64,000 bases of DNA from an uncultured Siphonobacter sp. (GCA_913774715.1 CAJYHS010000240.1:62001-126000), one strand, 5' to 3'. Positions 5,297-58,930 are shown, counted from the first letter of the stretch. Numbers and translations: made by a program. The notes: generated by a model not told the origin, from the letters alone.

Positions 5297-5331
5297 GGTT
5301 TTGAGTTTAGGGTTATTATTGTTCTTACTTT

Positions 5332-15406: not shown

Positions 15407-17986
15407 ATGAGGGGTACTCTATTCATCATTTTTTGTTTCTTCTGTTCCTTTACGCAAGCTCAGCACGTGATCCAAGGGCAGGTAACCGACCCGGCGGGTA
15501 AACCTATAGCAGGCGTTTCGGTATGGGTAGAATCCCGAACGAGCATGGTTACCTTTTCCCGCTCCAAGGAAGATGGTTCATTTCAAATTAAACTGGATGT
15601 CTCGCTGGATTCACTGGTTTTAAAAGCAAAAACCATGAATTATGCGGAGTATAAGCAAAGCATTTCCAACCAGTCTCAGTCCGTTCCCATAACCCTCCAG
15701 CCCCAGGCTACTGAACTTCGCGAGGTAGTAATTACCAATCCCAGTCCCGTCCGCAGAAATGGAGACACCCTTAGCTATTCAGTGGATAAATTTGCTACTA
15801 AAAATGATCGGGTGGTGGCTGATTTACTAAAGAAACTTCCTGGTATTACGGTCGAATCAGACGGACGAATTTTATATCAGGGCGATCCCATTCAGAAGTT
15901 CTACATCGAAGGCATGGATTTACTGAATGGACAGTATAACCTGGCTTCCAACAACTTACCCGTTAAAGCAGTAAAAGACATTCAGGTAATTGAGCGGCAT
16001 CAGCCTATTCGGGTGCTGGATAGTCTGGTTCGTTCGGAACGGGCTTCGCTTAATTTAAAGCTTAAAAACGGCGTAGCTCAAACGGGCACGGCGAAAGTGG
16101 GCGGCGGCTTCAATCCCTTCCTCTGGGATGTTAATGTTACCCCCATGCTGTTTACCCAAAAGCAGCAAATGATTGTTTCCTATCAGACGAATAATACCGG
16201 AAAAGACGTAGCCCTGGATTTAAAAACACTAACGGTTGACGACTTTAAAGACAACCTGACGAGCCTCACCCGAAAACAGGATTTGGTACGGGTTCAGGCT
16301 CTGACCAATCCACCGTTTGAAGCCCATCGGTACTTATTTAATCAGACTCATTTAGTGAGTTTCAATTACTTATTCAAGGTAAAGAAATATACCGAACTAC
16401 GGCTGAATGCTTCCTATCTTAATCAGCGTACCCGGCAAAATGGTTCTACTTTTACCCGTTTTTATACCGAACAGGATACCATTCAGTTATACGAAAACAA
16501 GCAGAATCGGCAATACGCCCAGACGTTTGAAGGCACCGCTTCAATCATTCATAATTCTCCCCGCCAATACCTGGAAAATACCTTTCACGCCAGCTTAACC
16601 AGTGAACAACAATCAGGTGCGATAGAAACCGGAACGCGGTCAATTAACCAGAATCTACACAATCCTTACTATTCGTTTTATAATCGGTTTAAACTCCTCA
16701 AAACGATAGGCAGGCAGGTAGTCAGTCTTCATTCATCCAGCTTTTACACGAAAACGCCACAACGGCTTTTCGTTCATTCAAAAGGATCCGACAGCACTGA
16801 CAATATAATCAATCAACAGGTATTATTCAATCATTTTCATACCAATAATTATGCTTCTTTTAGTAAAAAATTAGGAATCATTGATCTTTCCCAGACGGCT
16901 GGTTTTCTATTCGAATCCCAGGATTTTCAATCTGATCTGTCGTACCTGAATCCTTTCCGATCTATTACCAATGACAGTAAGTTACTTCGGTACAAGTATT
17001 ATAGTTTAACCGAAAGCAATTTTACATTTAACAAATTAACCATTCGAATAAAGATTCCGGTAAGTCTGTGGAAGTTAACCTTAACTGAACCTTACCGTTT
17101 CATAGCTGAACCTTCAGCCTTAATTAAATACACGCTTTCGCAGGTAACTGACGTTCGGGTTAATTATTCCGTTTCCAATCAATTTCCCAACTTATCCTAC
17201 CTTTACCCCAATCGGGTAATGAAAGATTATCGGACTTTTCAGGAAAACCATATCGATTATATTCAACGAAAAAGTCAGATCTTTTATAGCGGAATCTTTC
17301 ATGTAAATACCTTAAAAGCAGTCTTTGCGAATTTAACCTATAGCTTTTCTAAAACCTTTTCCAATGTATTACCCAACACGACCTTATCTTCCGAAGGAGA
17401 TCTAATTACCATCCAAACGTTCCAGCCGAACCAGACGCAATCCCACTCAATCAACGGACATGTTAGTAAATATATCTTAAGCACTAAAACAAATCTCAGC
17501 CTTACCTCTAACGCTCAGATGAGTTTAAGCAATCAGGTAGTAAATGAGAATTATTCCAGCATTAGAAATTACGTATGGTTTAATACGTTACGAATCGAAC
17601 AGTCCTTTGGTAACCAATTAGGCCTTACCTATAGCCTGAACCGAATCGATCAGAAGAACACCATTAATACCCTTAATCAGGGAAGATATCATTCCAATAC
17701 GCATCAGTTCAACAGTTATTATAATCTGTTCACAAATCATACCGTATCGTTTAGTGGAGAGATTTATGAATTATCGTACAGCACTACTCAAACGTCCAAT
17801 TCATTTTTTGATTTGACCTATCGGTATACGTTTCCTAAAAGCAAGTTTGAACTGGAAGGCCAATGGAATAATATCTTTAACAGCCGCTCCTATACATTTA
17901 TTAACAACGACACGTATTCCTATATTCTTAATACCTATCAGTTGAGACCTTCCCAGTTTCTGGTTACGGGTAAGTTTTCTTTCTAA
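15407..17986 (+). CDS. Outer-membrane beta-barrel, TonB-receptor-like protein with carboxypeptidase-regulatory-like N-terminus
   Basis: HVIQGQVTDPAGKPIAGVSVWVES; plug-like KKLPGITVESDGRILYQGDPIQKFYIEGMDLL; starts 6 bp after the GLPGLI stop. Confidence 0.88.
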   Translation: MRGTLFIIFCFFCSFTQAQHVIQGQVTDPAGKPIAGVSVWVESRTSMVTFSRSKEDGSFQIKLDVSLDSLVLKAKTMNYAEYKQSISNQSQSVPITLQPQATELREVVITNPSPVRRNGDTLSYSVDKFATKNDRVVADLLKKLPGITVESDGRILYQGDPIQKFYIEGMDLLNGQYNLASNNLPVKAVKDIQVIERHQPIRVLDSLVRSERASLNLKLKNGVAQTGTAKVGGGFNPFLWDVNVTPMLFTQKQQMIVSYQTNNTGKDVALDLKTLTVDDFKDNLTSLTRKQDLVRVQALTNPPFEAHRYLFNQTHLVSFNYLFKVKKYTELRLNASYLNQRTRQNGSTFTRFYTEQDTIQLYENKQNRQYAQTFEGTASIIHNSPRQYLENTFHASLTSEQQSGAIETGTRSINQNLHNPYYSFYNRFKLLKTIGRQVVSLHSSSFYTKTPQRLFVHSKGSDSTDNIINQQVLFNHFHTNNYASFSKKLGIIDLSQTAGFLFESQDFQSDLSYLNPFRSITNDSKLLRYKYYSLTESNFTFNKLTIRIKIPVSLWKLTLTEPYRFIAEPSALIKYTLSQVTDVRVNYSVSNQFPNLSYLYPNRVMKDYRTFQENHIDYIQRKSQIFYSGIFHVNTLKAVFANLTYSFSKTFSNVLPNTTLSSEGDLITIQTFQPNQTQSHSINGHVSKYILSTKTNLSLTSNAQMSLSNQVVNENYSSIRNYVWFNTLRIEQSFGNQLGLTYSLNRIDQKNTINTLNQGRYHSNTHQFNSYYNLFTNHTVSFSGEIYELSYSTTQTSNSFFDLTYRYTFPKSKFELEGQWNNIFNSRSYTFINNDTYSYILNTYQLRPSQFLVTGKFSF

Positions 17987-18057
17987 CTCTGAAACAAAAA
18001 AGCTCAAACCTAGTGGGTAAGAGCTTTTCACAAAACCAAATGAGGATTCTTAACCTA

Positions 18058-19128
18058 TTATTTCCATGCATGTTTCAGGAAACGTAAGAAGTTTCCGTGC
18101 ATGACTTTCGTAATATCTTCTTCCGTGTAGCCACGCTTGGCGAGTAAACCCGGAATAATCTGTAAATCAGCAATTGTTTCCAGATCATACGGACATTGTT
18201 CGCGACCGAAGGCTCCGTCCAGATCGGTTCCTATGCCGATGTGGTCGGCATTTCCAGCAATCTGACAGATATGATCGAGGTGATCGATTAAAACCTCCAG
18301 ATTACAGTTCATACCTTCGGGTGTAGACACGCCACGTACCCAGTTAGGTACCATCATCCAGGCATCCAGAGCCCCACCGATCACGGCTCCGCGATTAACG
18401 AGTTCACGAATCTGATCATCGCTGAACTGACGGTTATGATTCACCAGCGTCCGGCACAGGTTATGACTCGCCCAGACGGGTCCGTTGAAATGATCCATGG
18501 CTTCCCAGAAGCTATCGTCACACAAATGCGTGGCATCCAGAATGATGTTCAGCCGCTCCATTTCCTTGAGTAAATCCTGTCCGGCTTTACCCATGAAGCC
18601 CGTCGCGTCAGTACCCTGAGCGTACCGCCCCGGCCCGTAATGTGCAGGGCCGATGGCACGCAGACCATAGTTGTACGCCCGCTCCACGTGGTCAATGGTC
18701 ACAATGGAATCGGCTCCTTCCAGACTCAGGATGTACCCTACCGGCTTTTGTTCGTTGGGGGTGCCATCGTTCCAGAGAGCCAGGTGCTTTTCCAGTCCGG
18801 CCCAGTCGGTAATCTGCTTCATTTCCCCCTCGTCTTCCATGGCTTTATACCACGAAACCTGACCCTGTGTCTGGGCCCAGGCCTGCTGGGGCGAATGCCA
18901 GCCCGGCAGGTGATTGTCAGGAGCGACGTAACGACCAATCTGCGTAGCTACGACGATTCCAATATTTCCCTTCCGGAGTTCCGGTAAAGAAACCGTTGCT
19001 TTGGCCCGGTCGGGCTTATCGGTCAAACCTTTTTCTCTGGCATTGAGCTGAGCGACGGGCAACCGTAAATCACGGTTCCATTCCATCGCATTCATACTCA
19101 AATCCAGGTGAGCATCAAAAATGAACAT
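18058..19128 (-). CDS. Membrane dipeptidase, peptidase family M19
   Basis: FDAHLDLSMNAM, LSLEGADSI, LDATHLCDDSFWEAMDHFNGPVWASHNLCRTL, IGIGTDLDGAFG. Confidence 0.9.
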   Translation of the reverse strand: MFIFDAHLDLSMNAMEWNRDLRLPVAQLNAREKGLTDKPDRAKATVSLPELRKGNIGIVVATQIGRYVAPDNHLPGWHSPQQAWAQTQGQVSWYKAMEDEGEMKQITDWAGLEKHLALWNDGTPNEQKPVGYILSLEGADSIVTIDHVERAYNYGLRAIGPAHYGPGRYAQGTDATGFMGKAGQDLLKEMERLNIILDATHLCDDSFWEAMDHFNGPVWASHNLCRTLVNHNRQFSDDQIRELVNRGAVIGGALDAWMMVPNWVRGVSTPEGMNCNLEVLIDHLDHICQIAGNADHIGIGTDLDGAFGREQCPYDLETIADLQIIPGLLAKRGYTEEDITKVMHGNFLRFLKHAWK

Positions 19129-19129
19129 G

Positions 19130-19240
19130 TTCAGTTTTCGGTTTACAGTTTTCTGTTGTCAGTTTGGGGTTTACAATTTTCAGTTCATTACTAAGAGCGT
19201 AGTAGAAATTAAAAACTGTAAACAGAAAACCGAAAACTAA
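19130..19240. repeat. Word-permuted inverted repeat filling the gap (site A; AGTTTTCGGTTT/GTTTACAGTTTT words)
   Basis: AGTTTTCGGTTT at 19133-19144 pairs with AAACCGAAAACT at 19227-19238; GTTTACAGTTTT at 19141-19152 pairs with AAAACTGTAAAC at 19212-19223. Confidence 0.85.
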
Positions 19241-19728
19241 ACCAATTCAAACAAAGCCTCAATCTCTACCGGAATGTTATCGGGGAGAGAGCCGAAACCT
19301 ACGGCCGAGCGAACGCCAATGCCGTTTTCTTCACCCCAAACCTGAGCGAATAATTCGCTGCATCCGTTGATGATATAAGGATGACGCTCGAATTCAGAAA
19401 CGCAGTTCACCATGCCTAATACCTTGATCACCCGCTTCACGCGATCGAGGCTACCAATGTGCGTTTTGATCGTCGACAGAATGGTTAGTCCTACCTGACG
19501 AGCGGCCACCTTGCCAGCCTCCGCATCGATTTCGCGACCAATGCGGCCAATGATCAGGCTCTTGTCGTCCTGCACGGGACCGTGACCTGAAACGTAAAGG
19601 TATTTGCCATCAATTAGGTAAGGCTTATATACGCCCAGTGGCGTGGGTGCAGGAGGTAACGAAAGTCCTAATTTAGCGAAGGCAGCTTCAGGGCTAAGTA
19701 ATTCGACAGTTGTTGCGGCTGTGCTCAT
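19237..19728 (-). CDS. RidA/YjgF family protein
   Basis: YLYVSGHGPVQ...GRIGREIDAEAGKVAARQVGLTIL...IEALFELV. Confidence 0.88.
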   Translation of the reverse strand: MSTAATTVELLSPEAAFAKLGLSLPPAPTPLGVYKPYLIDGKYLYVSGHGPVQDDKSLIIGRIGREIDAEAGKVAARQVGLTILSTIKTHIGSLDRVKRVIKVLGMVNCVSEFERHPYIINGCSELFAQVWGEENGIGVRSAVGFGSLPDNIPVEIEALFELV

Positions 19729-19740
19729 GAGATTAAAATT

Positions 19741-19860
19741 TAGTTATTAGTTTCCCGTTGTCTGTTTTCCGTTTGCAGTTTTTGCTAGTTATAGTATTTG
19801 TTTAACCACATAGTTTCTCAGTTATTAACTAAAAACTGCAAACCGAAAACTAACAACTAT
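19741..19860. repeat. Word-permuted inverted repeat (site B)
   Basis: GTTTGCAGTTTTT 19771-19783 pairs perfectly with AAAAACTGCAAAC 19831-19843; flanks are built of the same words. Confidence 0.85.
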
Positions 19861-21161
19861 TAAATGATTTGATTCAAAAGTAACACTCCCACTAAACCTA
19901 CAATGGCGACTAGGGTTTCCATCATCGACCAGGAACGAATGGTGTCTTTGACGGATAAGTTAAAATATTCTTTGAACATCCAGAAACCCGGATCATTCAC
20001 GTGCGAAAACATTAAGCTTCCCGCTCCAATAGATAAAACCATCAGGTTTGGATTAACTGCCTGGTGAGTCATTAACGGAGCGATAATACCTGCCGCCGTT
20101 AACCCCGCAACCGTAGCCGAGCCAATACAAACCCGAATAATCGCCGCAATAAGCCAGCCTAAAAACAGCGGTGGCATTTCCAGACGTTGAAGCTGAGTAG
20201 CAATTTCGTTGCTTAGTCCACTGTCGGTTAATACCTGCTTTAATGCTCCGGCTCCCCCACTGATCAATACGATCATGGCAATGTCTTTTACCGCCGTTTC
20301 GTAGGTTTTCATTATCTCCCCCATGCCTCGGCCCCGGCCAATGCCGAGCGTAAACGTGGCTACAAGTACGGATATGAGCATCACAATCGTTGGGTCGCCA
20401 ATGAAGCCTAAGACTGCTTCAAAGGGGTTACCCGGATAGAAATGCGACAGCGTCGTCAGGGTTAATAAACCCACGGGGAGTAACGATGTAAAAAAGCTGC
20501 TCAAGCCGCTGGGTAACTCATCTTCGGGAATAAAACTGGCCTGAAAGGTTACCAGTGGCTCAGAATGAATGCCTTTCAACGTTAAAGCATACACTGGTCC
20601 GGCCAGGATAATCGTAGGTACGGCGATGATTAATCCATACACCAGCGTTAGTCCCATATCTCCGCCAAACTGGCCCACCAGGGCCGCTGGGGATGGGTGG
20701 GGCGGCAAAAAACCATGAGCCACCGACAACGACGCGAGCATAGGTAAGCCAATGGCCACGGCGGGTAACCGGTATTGATAGACGACCGAAAAAATCAGCG
20801 GCACCATTAACACAAAGCCAACGCCGTAAAACAGGGGAATACCGATAATAAAACCCGTACAGACCAGTCCCCAATGGATGTATTTTTCGCCGAATAAGCC
20901 CATCATCACCGAGGCAATTTTCTGGGCGGCTCCGCTTTCAGCCACCAGTTTTCCGAGCATGGCCCCGAGGGCGATGATTAATACCAGCGATCCCAGCGTA
21001 TCTCCTACCCCTTTCTGCACCGATTGCCCGATTTTTACGAGTGGAATACCTAATAACCAACCCGCCAAAACTGAAACCAGCAGGAAGGCTAAGAAAGGGT
21101 TCACCTTCGCCCAGACAATGAGTAAGACTAATAAAACAATACAGGCAGCAACACTAAGCAT
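19860..21161 (-). CDS. GntP-family gluconate/D-serine-type:H+ symporter
   Basis: VNPFLAFLLVSVLAGWLLGIP, GVGDTLGSLVLIIALGAMLGKLVAESGAA, HVNDPGFWMFKEYFNL. Confidence 0.92.
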   Translation of the reverse strand: MLSVAACIVLLVLLIVWAKVNPFLAFLLVSVLAGWLLGIPLVKIGQSVQKGVGDTLGSLVLIIALGAMLGKLVAESGAAQKIASVMMGLFGEKYIHWGLVCTGFIIGIPLFYGVGFVLMVPLIFSVVYQYRLPAVAIGLPMLASLSVAHGFLPPHPSPAALVGQFGGDMGLTLVYGLIIAVPTIILAGPVYALTLKGIHSEPLVTFQASFIPEDELPSGLSSFFTSLLPVGLLTLTTLSHFYPGNPFEAVLGFIGDPTIVMLISVLVATFTLGIGRGRGMGEIMKTYETAVKDIAMIVLISGGAGALKQVLTDSGLSNEIATQLQRLEMPPLFLGWLIAAIIRVCIGSATVAGLTAAGIIAPLMTHQAVNPNLMVLSIGAGSLMFSHVNDPGFWMFKEYFNLSVKDTIRSWSMMETLVAIVGLVGVLLLNQII

Positions 21162-21272
21162 TCGTTCCGTTTTCGGTTGGCCGTTTTCTGTTTTCAGTGA
21201 AAACGTAACCTTGATTATTGTAAATAAACTTTTCGGCTACCGTTGCCAGCTTTGCCGCGGGCAGCAGGCCTA

Positions 21273-22925
21273 TTAATCCAGACGCAGGGTACTGATTTTC
21301 TGGGTATTTCCTTCAATCCGCATGTTGTCCTGATACAGCACCGCCCGGTATTCGATTTCGTCGTAAGTCTGGATATTACCTTTCACCAGTTCCAGCGTCA
21401 TTTTACCCGTATTGCTGACGGGATAAATGTCCGTTGACTTCCATTTTTCGTTGAATTCTTCGTTCAGCGAACTCTGCACGGGACGGTATTCAAAACCAAT
21501 ACGATACTCTTTTCCGGAACCCATCTTCACGACATCGGCCGTTAATTTCAGATTACCATTCTTCAGTTTCTCGGCATTTACCGTGCGGAACTGCATGGGG
21601 GTCAGAGCGGCTTCCACGTTTTTGAGTTTCACTACAATCGGGTTAGGCCATTTGTGGTTATTGTAAATCCGCTGAGCCCGAACCACCGAGATTTTCAGAC
21701 CTTCCGACGTTTGCTCGAAGCGAGCCCGACCGTCCACATCAGGCTTATATTCTACGACATTACCCGTCTGCCCCAGCACGGTTACTTCCGTATTCGCCGT
21801 AGCTTTTACCGAACGAATCAGGAATTCCCGACGCTCGCCGCGGGGCCACTCGGGCATATTCGTCAAATACGCATAGACCGTATTTTCGTCTTTTTTCTTC
21901 GTGAACCAGATGTCATTTTCCGTACGGACAATCCAGGGCCGAACGTTATGAACGGCTTCCTGATTAATGAAATGCCAGGCTCCAATTTCCATCAAACGAC
22001 CTTCCTGACCTTCGTTCAGATTTCCCCACTGCGTAGGTCCTACATTTAGTAAGTAAGAGCCGCCTTTCGCCCGCGATTCGATCAGAATGTTCAGTAATTC
22101 CGTTCCTGATTTATAGTGTTCGTTGGTAGGTTTATAGTTCCAGGCGGTTCCCATCGTCATGCAACTTTCCCAGGCAGTTCCCAGGGTTTCTCCGGGTAAA
22201 TACTGCTCGGGCGTGGGTAAGGCTCCACGCGTAACGAGGCAGTTGGGCTGATACTTCCAGATCGTTTCCTTTACTTCTTCTTTCAATACATCACTATCAA
22301 TAAAGAACAGATCTACCGGACCGTATTTAGTCATTAGCTCCTTCGTCTGGTCTACCACGAACTTCTTGTATTGAGCCTGAAAGGGCTTTGCTTTCTCCCA
22401 GTGGTCGTCCCGGGTAATATCTTTCATCCCGTGCTTGTAGGCAAAGGCAAAATCTTCGGGCGAATAATAAAAGCCAACGGCCAGTCCCCACTTGCGACAG
22501 GCATCCACGTATTGCTTGAGAATATCCTTTTTGTAAGGCGTGTTCATCACGTTGAAATCCGTCGTTTTGGTATCCCACATGCAGAAACCCGCGTGGTGCT
22601 TGGTCGTGAACATGATGTATTTCATGCCCGCATTTTTCGCCAGTATGACCATTTTCTCAGCATCCCAGTCCTTTGGATTGAACGTTTGGGGTAGTTCCTT
22701 GATGTACCGTTCCACGTAATCCGACGAAGCCCCCACGAGCGAGTGGCTGATAACGACGCCCAGCTGCGTATCCACGTTCCAGTGAATAAACATGCCGAAG
22801 CCCGCATCTTTCAGCCACTCTTCGCGTTCGGGCTTATTATGGTTGGCACCAAAGTTCTCAGTTTCCTGAGCGTAGCCAGCCAGGGCAGATAAAAACAGGA
22901 AGAGGAAGCAGGATAATCGACGCAT
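21273..22925 (-). CDS. Alpha-L-fucosidase (GH29)
   Basis: WLKDAGFGMFIHWN, GMKYIMFTTKHHAGFCMWDTKTTDFNVM, YGPVDLFFIDSDV; signal peptide. Confidence 0.92.
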   Translation of the reverse strand: MRRLSCFLFLFLSALAGYAQETENFGANHNKPEREEWLKDAGFGMFIHWNVDTQLGVVISHSLVGASSDYVERYIKELPQTFNPKDWDAEKMVILAKNAGMKYIMFTTKHHAGFCMWDTKTTDFNVMNTPYKKDILKQYVDACRKWGLAVGFYYSPEDFAFAYKHGMKDITRDDHWEKAKPFQAQYKKFVVDQTKELMTKYGPVDLFFIDSDVLKEEVKETIWKYQPNCLVTRGALPTPEQYLPGETLGTAWESCMTMGTAWNYKPTNEHYKSGTELLNILIESRAKGGSYLLNVGPTQWGNLNEGQEGRLMEIGAWHFINQEAVHNVRPWIVRTENDIWFTKKKDENTVYAYLTNMPEWPRGERREFLIRSVKATANTEVTVLGQTGNVVEYKPDVDGRARFEQTSEGLKISVVRAQRIYNNHKWPNPIVVKLKNVEAALTPMQFRTVNAEKLKNGNLKLTADVVKMGSGKEYRIGFEYRPVQSSLNEEFNEKWKSTDIYPVSNTGKMTLELVKGNIQTYDEIEYRAVLYQDNMRIEGNTQKISTLRLD

Positions 22926-22926
22926 G

Positions 22927-23075
22927 TATTTAGTTTTTCAGTTGGCAGTTTTCGGTGGTCAGTTTTCAGTGTAGAGTTGTCCGTTTTTAGTTTTCAGTTG
23001 AGATTAAACTTTCCTAACCCTGTCGTTACTTTTCCAAGCAAACTGAAAACGGAAAACAGACAACTGAAAACTCAA
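22927..23075. repeat. Word-permuted inverted repeat (site D)
   Basis: AGTTTTCAGTTG at 22989-23000 pairs with CAACTGAAAACT at 23061-23072; additional CAGTTTTC/CCGTTTT words on both sides. Confidence 0.85.
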
Positions 23076-25342
23076 TTCACAATCACTTCATCCATCAAAA
23101 GCCAGGCCTTGTTACCAGCTCCGTATTGGCCAGCGGGGACGATTCCTTTGTTCTCCGCTTTAATCCTGACGAATCGGGCCTTTGTGGGCTGAAATTGTCC
23201 TTTGATTTCATTAATACCATTAATCGGAAAATCCTGATGCTGATAGACTTCCCGGTAATTTTTGCCATCTTCCGAGACCAGCATGTGTAGCGTAGTCGGT
23301 TCCCAGAACCGCTGCCAGTGATACTTCAGAACGTTTGTATTAATTTCGGAAATCGTTTCCGTTTGCTGTAAATCCAGCGTCCATTCGGCGTTTTCGCCCA
23401 GAAAGCCCAGCCATTCCCCCGTGTTATAGCGAGCCGTTCCTTTCACTCCGTTCACGGCTACCAGTGAACTGCCCGGAATGAAGTTACCCTTCGGAGCCGT
23501 CGCCAGTGCCAGCGGCTTACCCGTCGCTTTAGAGATGGTGAATGACTTTTCGAATACTCTTCCTTTTTGTACTTTCCCCAGAAAAACCGCCGCTTTAACC
23601 GTTTGCGTTTTCGGGATTACCAGGTCTGAAGTATAAGCTAAACTCGTTAGCTTCGGCTGACTCCCGTCGGTGGTATAACGGATGGTTGCTTTAGGTAAAG
23701 TCGTTTTCAGACGAAGCTGAACTTTGCCCGGAGCAGTTACCAAAACGGTATCCGTGATTTCATCGAAAACCTTTGCGTAGTTGACCTTCAATCGTTCGAG
23801 TAAAGATTCATTTTTTCGTAAACGTCTTAGAAAATCGATGTAGGCTCTCCCCTTCTTCGGTGACCAGGCAATTTCGGCCACGGCCAGTGCCCGCGGAAAA
23901 ATCATGTATTCCGCTTTGGCATCGGTCGACAAGTATTCACTCCAGACATTGCCCTGAACGCCTAGTAAATACGAAGCCTCTTCCTGAGTTAATGAATCGG
24001 GAACGGGTTCGTAACTATAGACTTTACTCAGCGGCGTATACCAGGCAGCGGCTACCTGTTCCTGCGGATTTAATGATTGATAGAAATCGAAATAGACGAA
24101 CGCTTCGGGCGTCATAATGGCCTTATGCTTCTGACGCATGGCCTCAATGCCGCCTTCGGTTCCCCGCCAGCTCATGACGGTCGCTCCGGGGGATAAGCCC
24201 CCTTCCAGAATCTCGTCCCAGCCAATAATTTCGCGGTTTCTCGTGAGCAGGTATTTCTCCATTCGCTGAATGAAGTAACTCTGCAATTCGTGCTCGTCTT
24301 TCAGTCCTTCGTGCTTCATTCGGGCCTGACACTTCGGGCAGCTTTTCCAGCGGGTTTTCGGACATTCGTCACCGCCGATGTGGATATATTTCGAAGGGAA
24401 TAACTCCACCACTTCGTCCAGCACATTTTGTAAAAAAGTAAATGTGCTGTCATTTCCGGCACAGTAGACATCCTCAAAAATCCCCCAGAACGTAGCAGCC
24501 TGATACGGCCCTCCGGTGCAACCCAGACTCGGAAAAGCCGACAAAGCGGCCAGAGCGTGACCGGGCATTTCAATCTCGGGAATGATGGTAATGTGGCGTT
24601 GAGCGGCATAACGAACTACCTCGCGTACTTCCTCCTGCGTGTAGTAACCGCCGTATTTTTTGCCGTCGAACCGGTGCGGCAGTTCGCGTTTATGGCCGAT
24701 CAGCGTCTGACTGCGGAAGGCCGCCGTTTCCTGCAATTGCGGGTAACGCTTGATCTCAATTCGCCAGCCCTGATCGTCGGTCAGGTGCCAGTGAAAGGTG
24801 TTGAATTTGTACTGAGCCAGCAGGTCAATATACTTTTTAATGAAAGGCACTTGAAACCAGTGGCGGCTGACATCCAGGTGCATACCCCGGTACGAAAACC
24901 GGGGGTAATCCACAATGTTACAGGCGGGTAAACGCAGGTCGGAGGACTGACTAATGATCTGAACGAGCGACTGAACGCCGTAAAAAAGTCCGGCGAGGTC
25001 GTGCCCGGTTAACTCAATGTTTTTCGATTGAATTCGCAGGTGATAACCTTCCGGCTGAGTCACCTTTAGCGAATCAATGTTCAGGTAAATAGAGGCGTTG
25101 GCTGAAGCCAGAGGTAAGGTAAATCCGGTAAATGTGCGGATTTGCTCCTGGGTCAATTTCAGAAAATCAGCCGGAACACCGGAGCCGGACGAAAGTTTCG
25201 CTAAGGCCGTCAGCGTAAATTCGCCCGGATTCCGGTGATAGGCTACCGGTTGAGGAATGAGTCCGCTTTGAGCGAACCCATTTCCCAGACCGATCAAGAA
25301 AAGTACTATGGTTACTAGGTATTTCATTCCTGCACTATTCAA
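23072..25342 (-). CDS. Beta-N-acetylhexosaminidase (GH20) with C-terminal chitobiase/F5-8C-like region
   Basis: YRGMHLDVSRHWF, FNTFHWHLTDDQGWRIEIKRYP, YIHIGGDECPKTRW. Confidence 0.95.
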   Translation of the reverse strand: MNSAGMKYLVTIVLFLIGLGNGFAQSGLIPQPVAYHRNPGEFTLTALAKLSSGSGVPADFLKLTQEQIRTFTGFTLPLASANASIYLNIDSLKVTQPEGYHLRIQSKNIELTGHDLAGLFYGVQSLVQIISQSSDLRLPACNIVDYPRFSYRGMHLDVSRHWFQVPFIKKYIDLLAQYKFNTFHWHLTDDQGWRIEIKRYPQLQETAAFRSQTLIGHKRELPHRFDGKKYGGYYTQEEVREVVRYAAQRHITIIPEIEMPGHALAALSAFPSLGCTGGPYQAATFWGIFEDVYCAGNDSTFTFLQNVLDEVVELFPSKYIHIGGDECPKTRWKSCPKCQARMKHEGLKDEHELQSYFIQRMEKYLLTRNREIIGWDEILEGGLSPGATVMSWRGTEGGIEAMRQKHKAIMTPEAFVYFDFYQSLNPQEQVAAAWYTPLSKVYSYEPVPDSLTQEEASYLLGVQGNVWSEYLSTDAKAEYMIFPRALAVAEIAWSPKKGRAYIDFLRRLRKNESLLERLKVNYAKVFDEITDTVLVTAPGKVQLRLKTTLPKATIRYTTDGSQPKLTSLAYTSDLVIPKTQTVKAAVFLGKVQKGRVFEKSFTISKATGKPLALATAPKGNFIPGSSLVAVNGVKGTARYNTGEWLGFLGENAEWTLDLQQTETISEINTNVLKYHWQRFWEPTTLHMLVSEDGKNYREVYQHQDFPINGINEIKGQFQPTKARFVRIKAENKGIVPAGQYGAGNKAWLLMDEVIVN

Positions 25343-30411: not shown

Positions 30412-31170
30412 ATGTCAGTCGTTTTCTTAAAAGAAGACCGTAAGGATCTGATTATAAATCAAGTAAACCTTCACACCCGTATTACCCTTACGGATTTAGC
30501 AAGTACACTTAATGTTTCGGAAGACACCATTCGCCGGGATATTAATGACTTGGCCGATGAGGGAAAGTTGATTAAAATCCGGGGTGGAGCTATGTCTAAG
30601 GCCTACCATTACTCTTCGCAACCCGTAGAGAGTTACGCCCATGACAGCAAAAAACTCATTGCAGAAAAAGCAGTTACCCTATTAAAAGACGGAATGCTGG
30701 TTTTGATGGGCGGGGGTACAACCATTCGGGAATTCATTAAAATGATTCCGAATGAGCTGAGGGCTACCTTCCTGACTGTCAATCCATTAACAGCCGTAGA
30801 GTTACTTGACAAACCCAATCTGGAAATTATAATGATTGGCGGTCCAATTTCCCGCTATAGTCAGATGGCCGTAGGCGGTGACGTATATCAACGACTGTCA
30901 GAGCTACGCGTAGACCTGTGCATCATGGGTACTAACGCCCTGGATGCCAAAGAAGGACTGACTGATTCGAACTGGGAAACGGTGCAGGCGAAGAAGGCAA
31001 TGATTCGTGCTTCGGAAAAAATTGCAATTCTTGCAATATCCGAGAAGATGAACAGCGTTATGTCTATGAAAGTGGCAGATTTGCGAGAAATTGACTACCT
31101 AATAACTGAACTTTCGCCGGACTCAAGTCTACTGGCTCCCTACCAAACCGGCAAGACGCTGGTGCTTTAG
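30412..31170 (+). CDS. DeoR/GlpR family transcriptional regulator
   Basis: RITLTDLASTLNVSEDTIRRDINDLADEGKLIKIRGGA and DeoR C-terminal effector domain. Confidence 0.95.
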   Translation: MSVVFLKEDRKDLIINQVNLHTRITLTDLASTLNVSEDTIRRDINDLADEGKLIKIRGGAMSKAYHYSSQPVESYAHDSKKLIAEKAVTLLKDGMLVLMGGGTTIREFIKMIPNELRATFLTVNPLTAVELLDKPNLEIIMIGGPISRYSQMAVGGDVYQRLSELRVDLCIMGTNALDAKEGLTDSNWETVQAKKAMIRASEKIAILAISEKMNSVMSMKVADLREIDYLITELSPDSSLLAPYQTGKTLVL

Positions 31171-31176
31171 TTGTTT

Positions 31177-31360
31177 GTTGCTAGTCTATAGTTGTTCGTT
31201 CCTAAACCGATTGCAGCATAGGATCAAACTCCTGCTGTTCCGAATTTGCAATCCGGAACTTCATCTATAGTGGATTTATAAGCCGCCTTAAACAAAAGTG
31301 GCCTGTGAAACACAGACCACTCTAAAAAAGACAAGTAACCATCAACTAATAACTAGCAAC
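31177..31360. repeat. Inverted repeat between convergent genes (site G) with inner AGTGG hairpin
   Basis: GTTGCTAGTCTATAGTTG (31177-31194) versus the complement of CAACTAATAACTAGCAAC (31343-31360), 15/18 match; inner AGTGGcCTGTG-aaa-CACAGaCCACT at 31297-31321. Confidence 0.7.
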
Positions 31361-31364
31361 GCTA

Positions 31365-36631: not shown

Positions 36632-37723
36632 ATGAAACGTCCATTTTTATCAATGGTACTGGGACTTCTATGCTCCTTGCCCACCCTAGCCCTCCCCGTG
36701 GATTCCATTCTGGTTCGGATTGGTCCCAAATCCAAAGTGCTGTTTTACAGCCCGACGAAAGAGGAATTAAAGAAACTGGAAAACTACGACTGGAACACCA
36801 TTTTGAAAGACCTCAATGCCCGCTTATCTGAAACAACCAAAGCCGAACCCCGGCAGCATTACATTGACCTGAGTGGGAGGAGTTTTCTGAGTGATAGTAG
36901 TTTACGAAGTGTTAATTCGTTAGTCAGGGTGAGTCAGCAGCTTGACCAGCCCGTAACCAAAGAAAAAATCACCCAGAACTTAGGGTTTCTTAAAAACAAC
37001 CTAACCATTCGTTTGGGATTCACGCCTTTCTTAAGATCTCAGCGAAACGGTATGGTAAACATGTTTTCTTCCAATACTTATTCAACTTTTAATTACGCTT
37101 TAGGTATTGCTCGATATTCTGCCTTTTACGTTCAGAATCGCTGGTCAATTGGGTTACGGTGGGGGTTAGAATTTGATTCCAAAAGATTTGGTTGGGAAGA
37201 ACTTGTTATTAACGAAAATAAAAAAGCAAACACGGCAGAGGAGCTAAAGGACTATATAACTGAACTTACGGCTAATTATCCCGTGCATGAGGGTTTTTAT
37301 GAAGTACAAAAAATTTACGATCAGTATCAGTTAATATCTTATTTCGACCGCATTACCACAACCATGCATTCATTACACGTACCTATTGTGCCTACTGTAC
37401 GACTGTATGATAAGTCAGGAAAGCGGTCTTTATCGTTAGGTGTAGGAGGATATGTTGGGTATAGGGTCTACATGAGCGATCGATATGTTAATCGTAAAGC
37501 TAACTGGGATCAGCAAATGAATTCAGCCATTAGTAATCCTTTCCAGTATGGATTAATTACTTCTTTCGGCTTCCGGAAAATTGGATTATACTGCCACTAT
37601 CAGCTCGGTTCAACCATCAAAAATGCCTATGCACGTACTTCTGCTTTGCAACTAACAGCTTTCCCTACCAGACGGGAGCCAACTGGCCCTATTTCCTTCG
37701 GCATTACCTACAACGGCTTTTAA
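36632..37723 (+). CDS. Exported hypothetical, possible outer-membrane beta-barrel
   Basis: Signal peptide; C-terminal alternating aromatic strands ending SFGITYNGF. Confidence 0.55.
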   Translation: MKRPFLSMVLGLLCSLPTLALPVDSILVRIGPKSKVLFYSPTKEELKKLENYDWNTILKDLNARLSETTKAEPRQHYIDLSGRSFLSDSSLRSVNSLVRVSQQLDQPVTKEKITQNLGFLKNNLTIRLGFTPFLRSQRNGMVNMFSSNTYSTFNYALGIARYSAFYVQNRWSIGLRWGLEFDSKRFGWEELVINENKKANTAEELKDYITELTANYPVHEGFYEVQKIYDQYQLISYFDRITTTMHSLHVPIVPTVRLYDKSGKRSLSLGVGGYVGYRVYMSDRYVNRKANWDQQMNSAISNPFQYGLITSFGFRKIGLYCHYQLGSTIKNAYARTSALQLTAFPTRREPTGPISFGITYNGF

Positions 37724-53314: not shown

Positions 53315-53480
53315 TAGTTTTACGTTTGCTGTTATCAGTTTGTCATTAACCACAGATTATCACAAAGTTTTACTCAGAGTTACTCTGTGCTAAACTCTGA
53401 GTTACTCTGTGGTTAATTTCTTAATGAACATTCATAGCGATACCTGAAAACAGCAAACTAAAAACTGAAAACTGAAAAGA
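53315..53480. repeat. Word-permuted inverted repeat (site E), outer TAGTTTnCGTTTGCTGTTnTCAG, inner ATTAACCACAGA/TCTGTGGTTAAT
   Basis: Read directly between the RR stop and the HK start; inner ACTCTGTG word repeated. Confidence 0.85.
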
Positions 53481-58853: not shown

Positions 58854-58930
58854 TTTAGTTGTTGATTATTTGTTGTTGGTTGATAGTCTTTTGTTTTTCT
58901 AACAACTATTAACCGGCAACAAACAACCCC
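58854..58930. repeat. Word-permuted inverted repeat (site I; GTTGTT/GATAGT words)
   Basis: tagttgttgattatttgttgttggttgatagtc versus the complement of aacaactattaaccggcaacaaacaacc. Confidence 0.75.

Follow-up and report, generated by a model that had tools for sequence, protein, structure and literature searches.

Several spacers in a polysaccharide-utilization locus of an uncultured Siphonobacter (Cytophagales) are built from a few short related words, which raises the question of what these spacers are, what they might do and by which process they were written. The window, a stretch of 64,000 nucleotides analysed at its full length, carries this locus entirely on the minus strand (SusC, SusD, GH20, GH29, GntP, a RidA-like protein and an M19 dipeptidase, names that are backed by Pfam), and the same locus is found in Siphonobacter sp. 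SORGH_AS_0500 and BAB-5405. A preliminary description had reported three spacers with two inverted arms and one spacer with a single arm, and all four were found where it had placed them.

A heptad grammar in intergenic DNA

The vocabulary of these spacers is a degenerate tandem heptad of period 7, NGTTNNB (AGTTTTC / NGTTKNC in the window arrays of the first spacers), and what had been taken for permuted words is one degenerate heptad register. The elements have the form (NGTTNNB)n - unique core - (VNNAACN)n, with the GTT-form on the left and its reverse complement, the AAC-form, on the right, and a gene read in its own sense is flanked as (GNNAACN)n-ATG...stop-(NGTTNNC)n. On the AAC strand the units are mainly GAAAACT, GTAAACN and CTAAACN. 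Position 7 of the heptad defines classes, named C (AGTTTTC), G (AGTTTAG/GGTTTTG) and T (AGTTGTT/GGTTGAT). Looser spacing marks GTTTGA/GTTTAA, a candidate fourth vocabulary that stands outside the class scoring. The arms present in the window are the following:

5297..5317, plus strand: short class G arm, directly past a stop codon
19133..19188, plus strand: GTT-form array of 8 class C heptads, 4 bp away from the ATG of the dipeptidase
19211..19238, minus strand: partner arm, 4 heptads, the first taking in the last two bases (AG) of RidA's TAG stop
19742..19783, plus strand: class C arm on the start side of (upstream of) RidA
19824..19858, minus strand: partner arm, 1 bp short of the GntP stop codon (TTA, 19860-19862)
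21168..21195, plus strand: lone class C arm, at 6 bp from the ATG of GntP, kept in three congeners
22933..23002 (alternatively 22940..23002), plus strand: class C arm upstream of GH29 (alpha-L-fucosidase)
23038..23072, minus strand: partner arm, running one base into the GH20 stop codon (TCA, 23072-23074)
31169..31203, plus strand: class T arm in a convergent gap, which is 6 bp in G060 and G020 and 1 bp in G046
31334..31361, minus strand: class T partner arm in the same convergent gap
53316..53343, plus strand: class C arm beyond the region first described, 4 bp past a response-regulator gene stop
53446..53473, minus strand: partner arm ahead of a histidine-kinase start; the consensus scan extends the array to 53480
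58857..58898, plus strand: class T arm; the same gap is class G in congener G046
58901..58928, minus strand: class T partner arm

The ORF calls (dipeptidase ATG at 19128, RidA stop at 19237, GntP stop at 19860, GH29 ATG at 22925, GH20 stop at 23072) agree with the borders reported earlier, and the arms are indeed inverted and abut the gene edges. That the spacers consist wholly of such words holds for the arms but not for the middle, where a unique core of ~29-47 bp lies between them. Read in the coding sense, the 19133..19188 array is an AAC arm preceding the start codon. The pairs at 31169-31361 (T), 53316-53473 (C) and 58857-58928 (T) and the single arm at 5297-5317 (G) had been missed in the preliminary description, which also overlooked the 7-nt period, the word classes and the genome- and family-wide spread; its observation is real, and bigger than first described.

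A consensus scan of the window found 8 arrays versus 0 in 20 order-2 Markov sequences, and a class-blind scan, which asks for GTT every 7 nt and no further letters, found 14; its reversed-sequence control was empty, and each of 20 order-3 Markov sequences yielded 0-2. Over 850 kb from the same genome, the consensus scan gave 56 arrays versus 10 in reversed sequence, and their order along the DNA was '+-' 17 times, '+--' once and '-+' never. Across 2.38 Mb covering six Siphonobacter genomes and four further genera, the class-blind scan gave 226 arrays versus 14 in reversed sequence, with neighbours ordered '+-' in 65 cases, '++' in 3, '--' in 2 and '-+' in 2 (genome-wide figures are based on the 850 kb plus stretches of congeners). 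Chance or composition as the source of the arrays is ruled out by the Markov, reversed-sequence and shuffle controls. An assembly artefact is ruled out by orthologous arrays in independent assemblies of congeners.

The two arms of an element agree in class in 59 of 64 pairs, while 10,000 shuffles of the partners averaged 28 and never exceeded 45. Within an arm, neighbouring heptads are less similar than chance (0.399 vs 0.445 in within-arm shuffles, sd 0.009), and identical neighbours make up 4.4% versus 8.2% expected. A simple product of replication slippage, which had been offered as one origin, is disfavoured by this under-representation, notwithstanding the presence of some perfect (AGTTTTC)n arrays in the genome.

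Placement and turnover among congeners

Siphonobacter arrays lie in intergenic DNA in 202 cases and within called genes in 8, with intergenic DNA amounting to only 13%. Stop-facing arms (92) lie at a median of 3 bp from the stop codon, 83% of them within 10 bp, and are nearer their codon than start-facing arms (106), whose median is 12.5 bp with 48% within 10 bp; gene calls follow simple ORF rules, and start distances are therefore rough. The stop codon was rejected as the seed of the register, as the phase of the heptads relative to it is scattered over all seven values. Arrays occupy 102 of 942 co-directional gaps versus 31 of 546 others (2.0-fold, p=0.0007). The latter comprise divergent (16/281) and convergent (15/265) gaps, so the arrays are not confined to operons, and seven of the 16 divergent gaps are two-armed. 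One array abuts a tRNA 3' end, and in gap C141:97855 an arm ends at a conserved non-coding block, not at an ATG.

The locus is syntenic among congeners. The arrays turn over, being gained, lost and replaced by another class among close species, since the corresponding gap in congeners is either an empty site or filled by arrays of a different class. The GntP-RidA gap is class C here and in G072 and class G in G083, G060 and G020; the gap between response regulator and kinase is class C here and in G083 and class G in G072, G060 and G020. Presence of an array in a gap is not conserved between species: array-free gaps measure 1-39 bp (mostly in G046, and in G060 and G020 at 31171-31364) versus 100-280 bp for filled orthologous gaps, and the site of the 5297-5317 arm is an array-free gap of 46 bp in G020 and 27 bp in G046. 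The closest pair, G060 and G020, with a fourfold-site divergence of 0.19, shows whole replacements between the same borders (C184 71818/73047 and C1 7352/8374, in coordinates of the fetched stretches).

Where the class changed, the register relative to the gene edge was kept in 8 of 50 cases on the start side and 9 of 37 on the stop side (random, 16%); in same-class orthologues it was kept in 29 of 57 and 18 of 45. Because the register is not retained across class changes, a change of class points to a new array, not an edited one, and in-register class conversion was rejected on the same ground. In orthologous arms of at least 85% identity, changes fell at GTT in 13 of 369 positions versus 33 of 369 at positions 1, 5 and 6 (p=0.003), a difference that is not significant at a cut of at least 90%; core changes in the same comparison were 59 of 653. 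This is moderate evidence that the GTT positions are under constraint in orthologous arms. Part of the signal may stem from in-phase alignment of non-orthologous arms.

Possible roles and origins of the arrays

The best explanation, which we hold tentatively, is that the arrays are intergenic stem-loops kept for the pairing of their arms, acting like a REP or 3' hairpin without being a member of that group. In a co-directional or convergent gap, the transcript would fold into one long imperfect hairpin, based at the stop codon and, within an operon, also at the start that follows. Such a hairpin would shield the upstream message from 3'-5' decay, like a REP/3'-end hairpin, and would fold the spacer out between cistrons. 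Pairing would need the same class in both arms and would tolerate mismatches at the free positions 1, 5 and 6; this would account for arms that agree in class without agreeing in word order. Some DNA process would write the raw arrays, leaving the copies in divergent gaps as by-products.

The arms do form the nested stems described earlier, and RNA fold z-scores of the three window elements are -6.4, -5.5 and -3.6. The duplex of own partners reaches -28.7 kcal/mol versus -26.9 for same-class partners, where 7 of 5000 shuffles reach the own-partner value, and -20.3 for partners of any class, where 0 of 5000 do, a mismatched class costing ~10-16 kcal/mol in arm pairing. Genera g9 and g17 have arms that mirror each other almost perfectly around a genus-specific hairpin tip, and the order rule holds there and in g5 too. 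Besides these values, the inward polarity (65:2), the class concordance (59/64), the co-directional enrichment, the closeness of stop-facing arms to the stop codon, the lower rate of change at GTT and the refilling of the same gaps with a different class elsewhere all argue for hairpins kept for pairing. The role in intercistronic RNA structure proposed in the preliminary description is still viable, given the twofold enrichment and the fold scores. Against such hairpins, the same architecture occurs in divergent gaps, where the two arms would not lie on one transcript; word matching is only slightly above same-class random, the GTT constraint is not significant at the cut of at least 90%, presence is not conserved, and arrays also end at a tRNA 3' end and a non-coding block.

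Nearly as likely, and still short of an even chance, is that the arrays have no cellular function: a DNA process would make class-matched inverted arrays as a unit, and selection would only purge those that damage genes. This process could be hairpin-templated strand switching or the addition of heptads to both 3' ends of broken ends; the arrays would occupy dispensable DNA as far as the next functional border, and the polarity would reflect a head-to-head join of two GTT-strand-repeat ends. Consistent with such a palindrome generator, polarity is fixed and class is shared in Siphonobacter without word copying, partner arms resembling each other in their words only slightly more than random arms of one class do; for that reason strict arm copying (quasi-palindrome correction) was rejected for Siphonobacter. 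In g9 and g17, unlike in Siphonobacter, the word order of partner arms matches almost perfectly. The loss of register on class change, the empty sites of 1-39 bp, the arms at the tRNA 3' end and the non-coding block and the arrays in divergent and convergent gaps would fit a generator of this kind as well, but the reduced change at GTT, the twofold co-directional enrichment and the lack of Ku and RVT_1 matches in the genome speak against it.

On the side of the generating step, it is possible, though we consider it doubtful, that a DNA-synthesis or end-healing process working without Ku, RVT_1 or a Y1 transposase writes class-matched heptads and keeps rewriting gaps by class across the family; the polarity would then resemble head-to-head fused telomere repeats. 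Judging by this genome, the step would seem to need neither Ku, RVT_1 nor Y1/RAYT. Ku is absent from this genome and from four of five congeners, the RVT_1 reverse transcriptase has no match here or in four congeners, and the Y1/RAYT transposase (PF01797) has none here or in G020, nor in G080, another array carrier, while it is present in other congeners. Ku end-joining, retro-copying or a DGR, and RAYT mobility were rejected on these absences. Slippage, RAYT mobility, retro-copying and Ku repair are together disfavoured because the cores are unique, identical neighbours are rarer than chance and this genome has no match for the enzymes.

It is unlikely that the arrays are a mobile REP/MITE-like family with arms that happen to be heptads. 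Genus-specific core hairpins (GGTTGGCTGACGCAT...ATGCGTCAGCCAACC in G099 and TGTTGCTTCG...GCAGCGCAACA in G069) would suit such a family, but in whole-genome searches using 13.5 kb and 20 kb from this genome the Siphonobacter cores lack a second copy and only arms recur; since the cores have no second copy, the arrays are not a copied element. The Y1/RAYT absences above count against mobility too, and no target duplication was seen in filled/empty comparisons, where divergence is limiting.

We give equally little credence to a sequence-specific nucleic-acid-binding protein, of the cold-shock, S1 or another kind, that would use the heptads as binding registers and regulate translation initiation. 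The GTT triplet recurs every 7 nt with free positions in between, and AAC-form arms precede start codons in the orientation of the TAACTGA repeats (PMC4679880); however, stop-facing arms are as frequent (92 vs 106) and closer to their codon, and class matching would be left unexplained. The RRM protein RbpB was rejected as a binder, the accessible part of its description containing no heptad or GUU motif. Intrinsic terminators are rejected, as a scan for a GC-rich stem plus U-tract found no such site at the arrays, which agrees with the earlier view that they are not duplicated terminators, and a known RNA family is rejected as Rfam gave no match in 17500-24000 up to E=1.

Known relatives and spread

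In line with the earlier statement, no named element that matches the arrays was found. The closest likeness is to the P6b heptads of Nostoc trnL, which are described, in the accounts given in PMC3488679 and PMC4476775 of Costa et al. 2002, as degenerate, with two exchangeable classes that do not follow phylogeny and an origin left unresolved. As far as these accounts go, degenerate heptads on both sides pair there into a stem with one class per stem, the class shifts repeatedly, and length varies by heptads and inserted side hairpins. Pairing heptad arms and classes alternating between lineages are found in Siphonobacter too; but the Nostoc case is described as one RNA locus, in a group I intron of cyanobacteria and with other heptads, whereas the arrays number in the hundreds per genome in Bacteroidota and are intergenic, placed at gene edges, with at least three position-7 classes. 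The second likeness is to TAACTGA (AGTTATC on the other strand), whose direct repeats are intergenic and patchy in Bacteroidetes, Cyanobacteria and Beggiatoaceae, and for which a binding role in translation initiation was proposed (MacGregor 2015, PMC4679880). The AAC strand lies just upstream of starts in both, but TAACTGA is reported as an exact heptad repeated in direct orientation, BOGUAY supplying the only inverted case, whereas our arrays are degenerate, paired in inverted order ('++' and '--' being rare) and found after stops too. A search for a TAACTGA array in plasmids gave no match. By the features compared here, the arrays share form with the Nostoc trnL stems and the TAACTGA repeats and belong to neither.

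Like REP/BIME, the arrays are intergenic palindromes near gene ends and plausible 3'-end hairpins, but they have no conserved, repeated 20-40 bp palindrome, no RAYT/Y1 match in this genome, longer arms and class turnover. The conserved terminal repeats, internal sequence and target-site duplication of a MITE were not found either. Bacterial heptamer LSSRs/microsatellites also have a 7-nt unit (Mrazek et al. 2007, as cited in PMC4679880); compared with what is reported there, the arrays are mostly degenerate, avoid identical neighbours and are inversely paired. A search that stopped short of subscription-only papers found no publication on inverted, class-matched intergenic heptad arrays.

These results bring two isolated curiosities, the heptad stems of one cyanobacterial intron and the repeats of TAACTGA, under one testable grammar that applies genome-wide: GTT register, position-7 class, inward polarity and gene-edge placement. 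The six Siphonobacter genomes, with their filled, empty and class-swapped gaps, are a natural experiment on how intergenic palindromes are made and replaced, which also bears on whether arrays set expression ratios in operons such as polysaccharide-utilization loci.

Near GntP, arrays are absent from about 80 Bacteroidota loci outside Siphonobacter, and in the phylum beyond the family matches are sparse except in a few genomes (G219, G250, G353). Within the family, C-class heptad matches (at most one mismatch to four heptads) occur in 25 of 36 sampled genera, several of which have ~50-300 matches per strand with reversed controls near zero.

Palindromes between heptad arms

In the gap between the response-regulator and histidine-kinase genes of the window, a second palindromic repeat, composed of AACCACAG...TCTGTGGTT and CAGAGTTACTCTG blocks, lies in the core flanked by two heptad arms:

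53316-53343 (+), class C (AGTTTTC) arm
53346-53416, palindromic repeat
53446-53473 (-), class C arm

Heptad-element cores of three Siphonobacter congeners (G072, G083 and G060) contain palindromes resembling this repeat, which, together with these counterparts, represents nested palindromes. Elsewhere in the window's own genome, on contig C141 (87678-87728; L064:7678-7728), a heptad-element core holds a palindromic repeat of the GGATTATAAATCC / CGGATTACAAATCCG type, a dispersed repeat of which Siphonobacter genomes contain dozens of copies. Outside this genus, three elements on contig C1 of the genus g17 genome G099 (L189-L193; 1552-1648, 46872-46961 and 70507-70594) share a common apical hairpin, GGTTGGCTGACGCAT...ATGCGTCAGCCAACC. 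Variable heptad arms enclose this hairpin, and compared with REP the g17 elements resemble REP capped on heptad stems.

Length, vocabulary and borders of the arms

When an orthologous gap was compared between G020 and G060, each arm was found to be about 50 nt shorter in G020 while the core was retained, a difference that is a concerted change of both arms. In G060 this gap (36757-37079 of the joined stretch of contig C1, L242-L245, from 50001) shows a looser GTTTGA/GTTTAA vocabulary, with a spacing of 7 or 10 nt. As for arm borders, the heptad arm in the C141 gap 97855-98111 ends at a block, TGTTAAAGAAAGTTAAGGCTTTAAACGTG, located upstream of the right-hand gene. This block, likely a promoter or regulatory site, is kept in the Siphonobacter compared, and the array-free G046 also carries a diverged form.

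Perfect and near-perfect heptad arrays

Two contig ends of the window's own genome carry perfect (AGTTTTC)n arrays (C5:83906-84020 and C65:1-94). The assembly probably breaks at these arrays, which may be recent slippage expansions. The complementary unit forms a near-perfect (GAAAACT)n microsatellite of 10 to 13 units on Enterobacter IncFIB plasmids (L249:5999-6068 and L250:3154-3244), with similar matches in Citrobacter and Salmonella plasmids. This microsatellite, which could be phase-variable, precedes two genes, DUF1778 and GNAT, that probably form a toxin-antitoxin pair, and in one Enterobacter IncFIB plasmid phage tail genes are found nearby.
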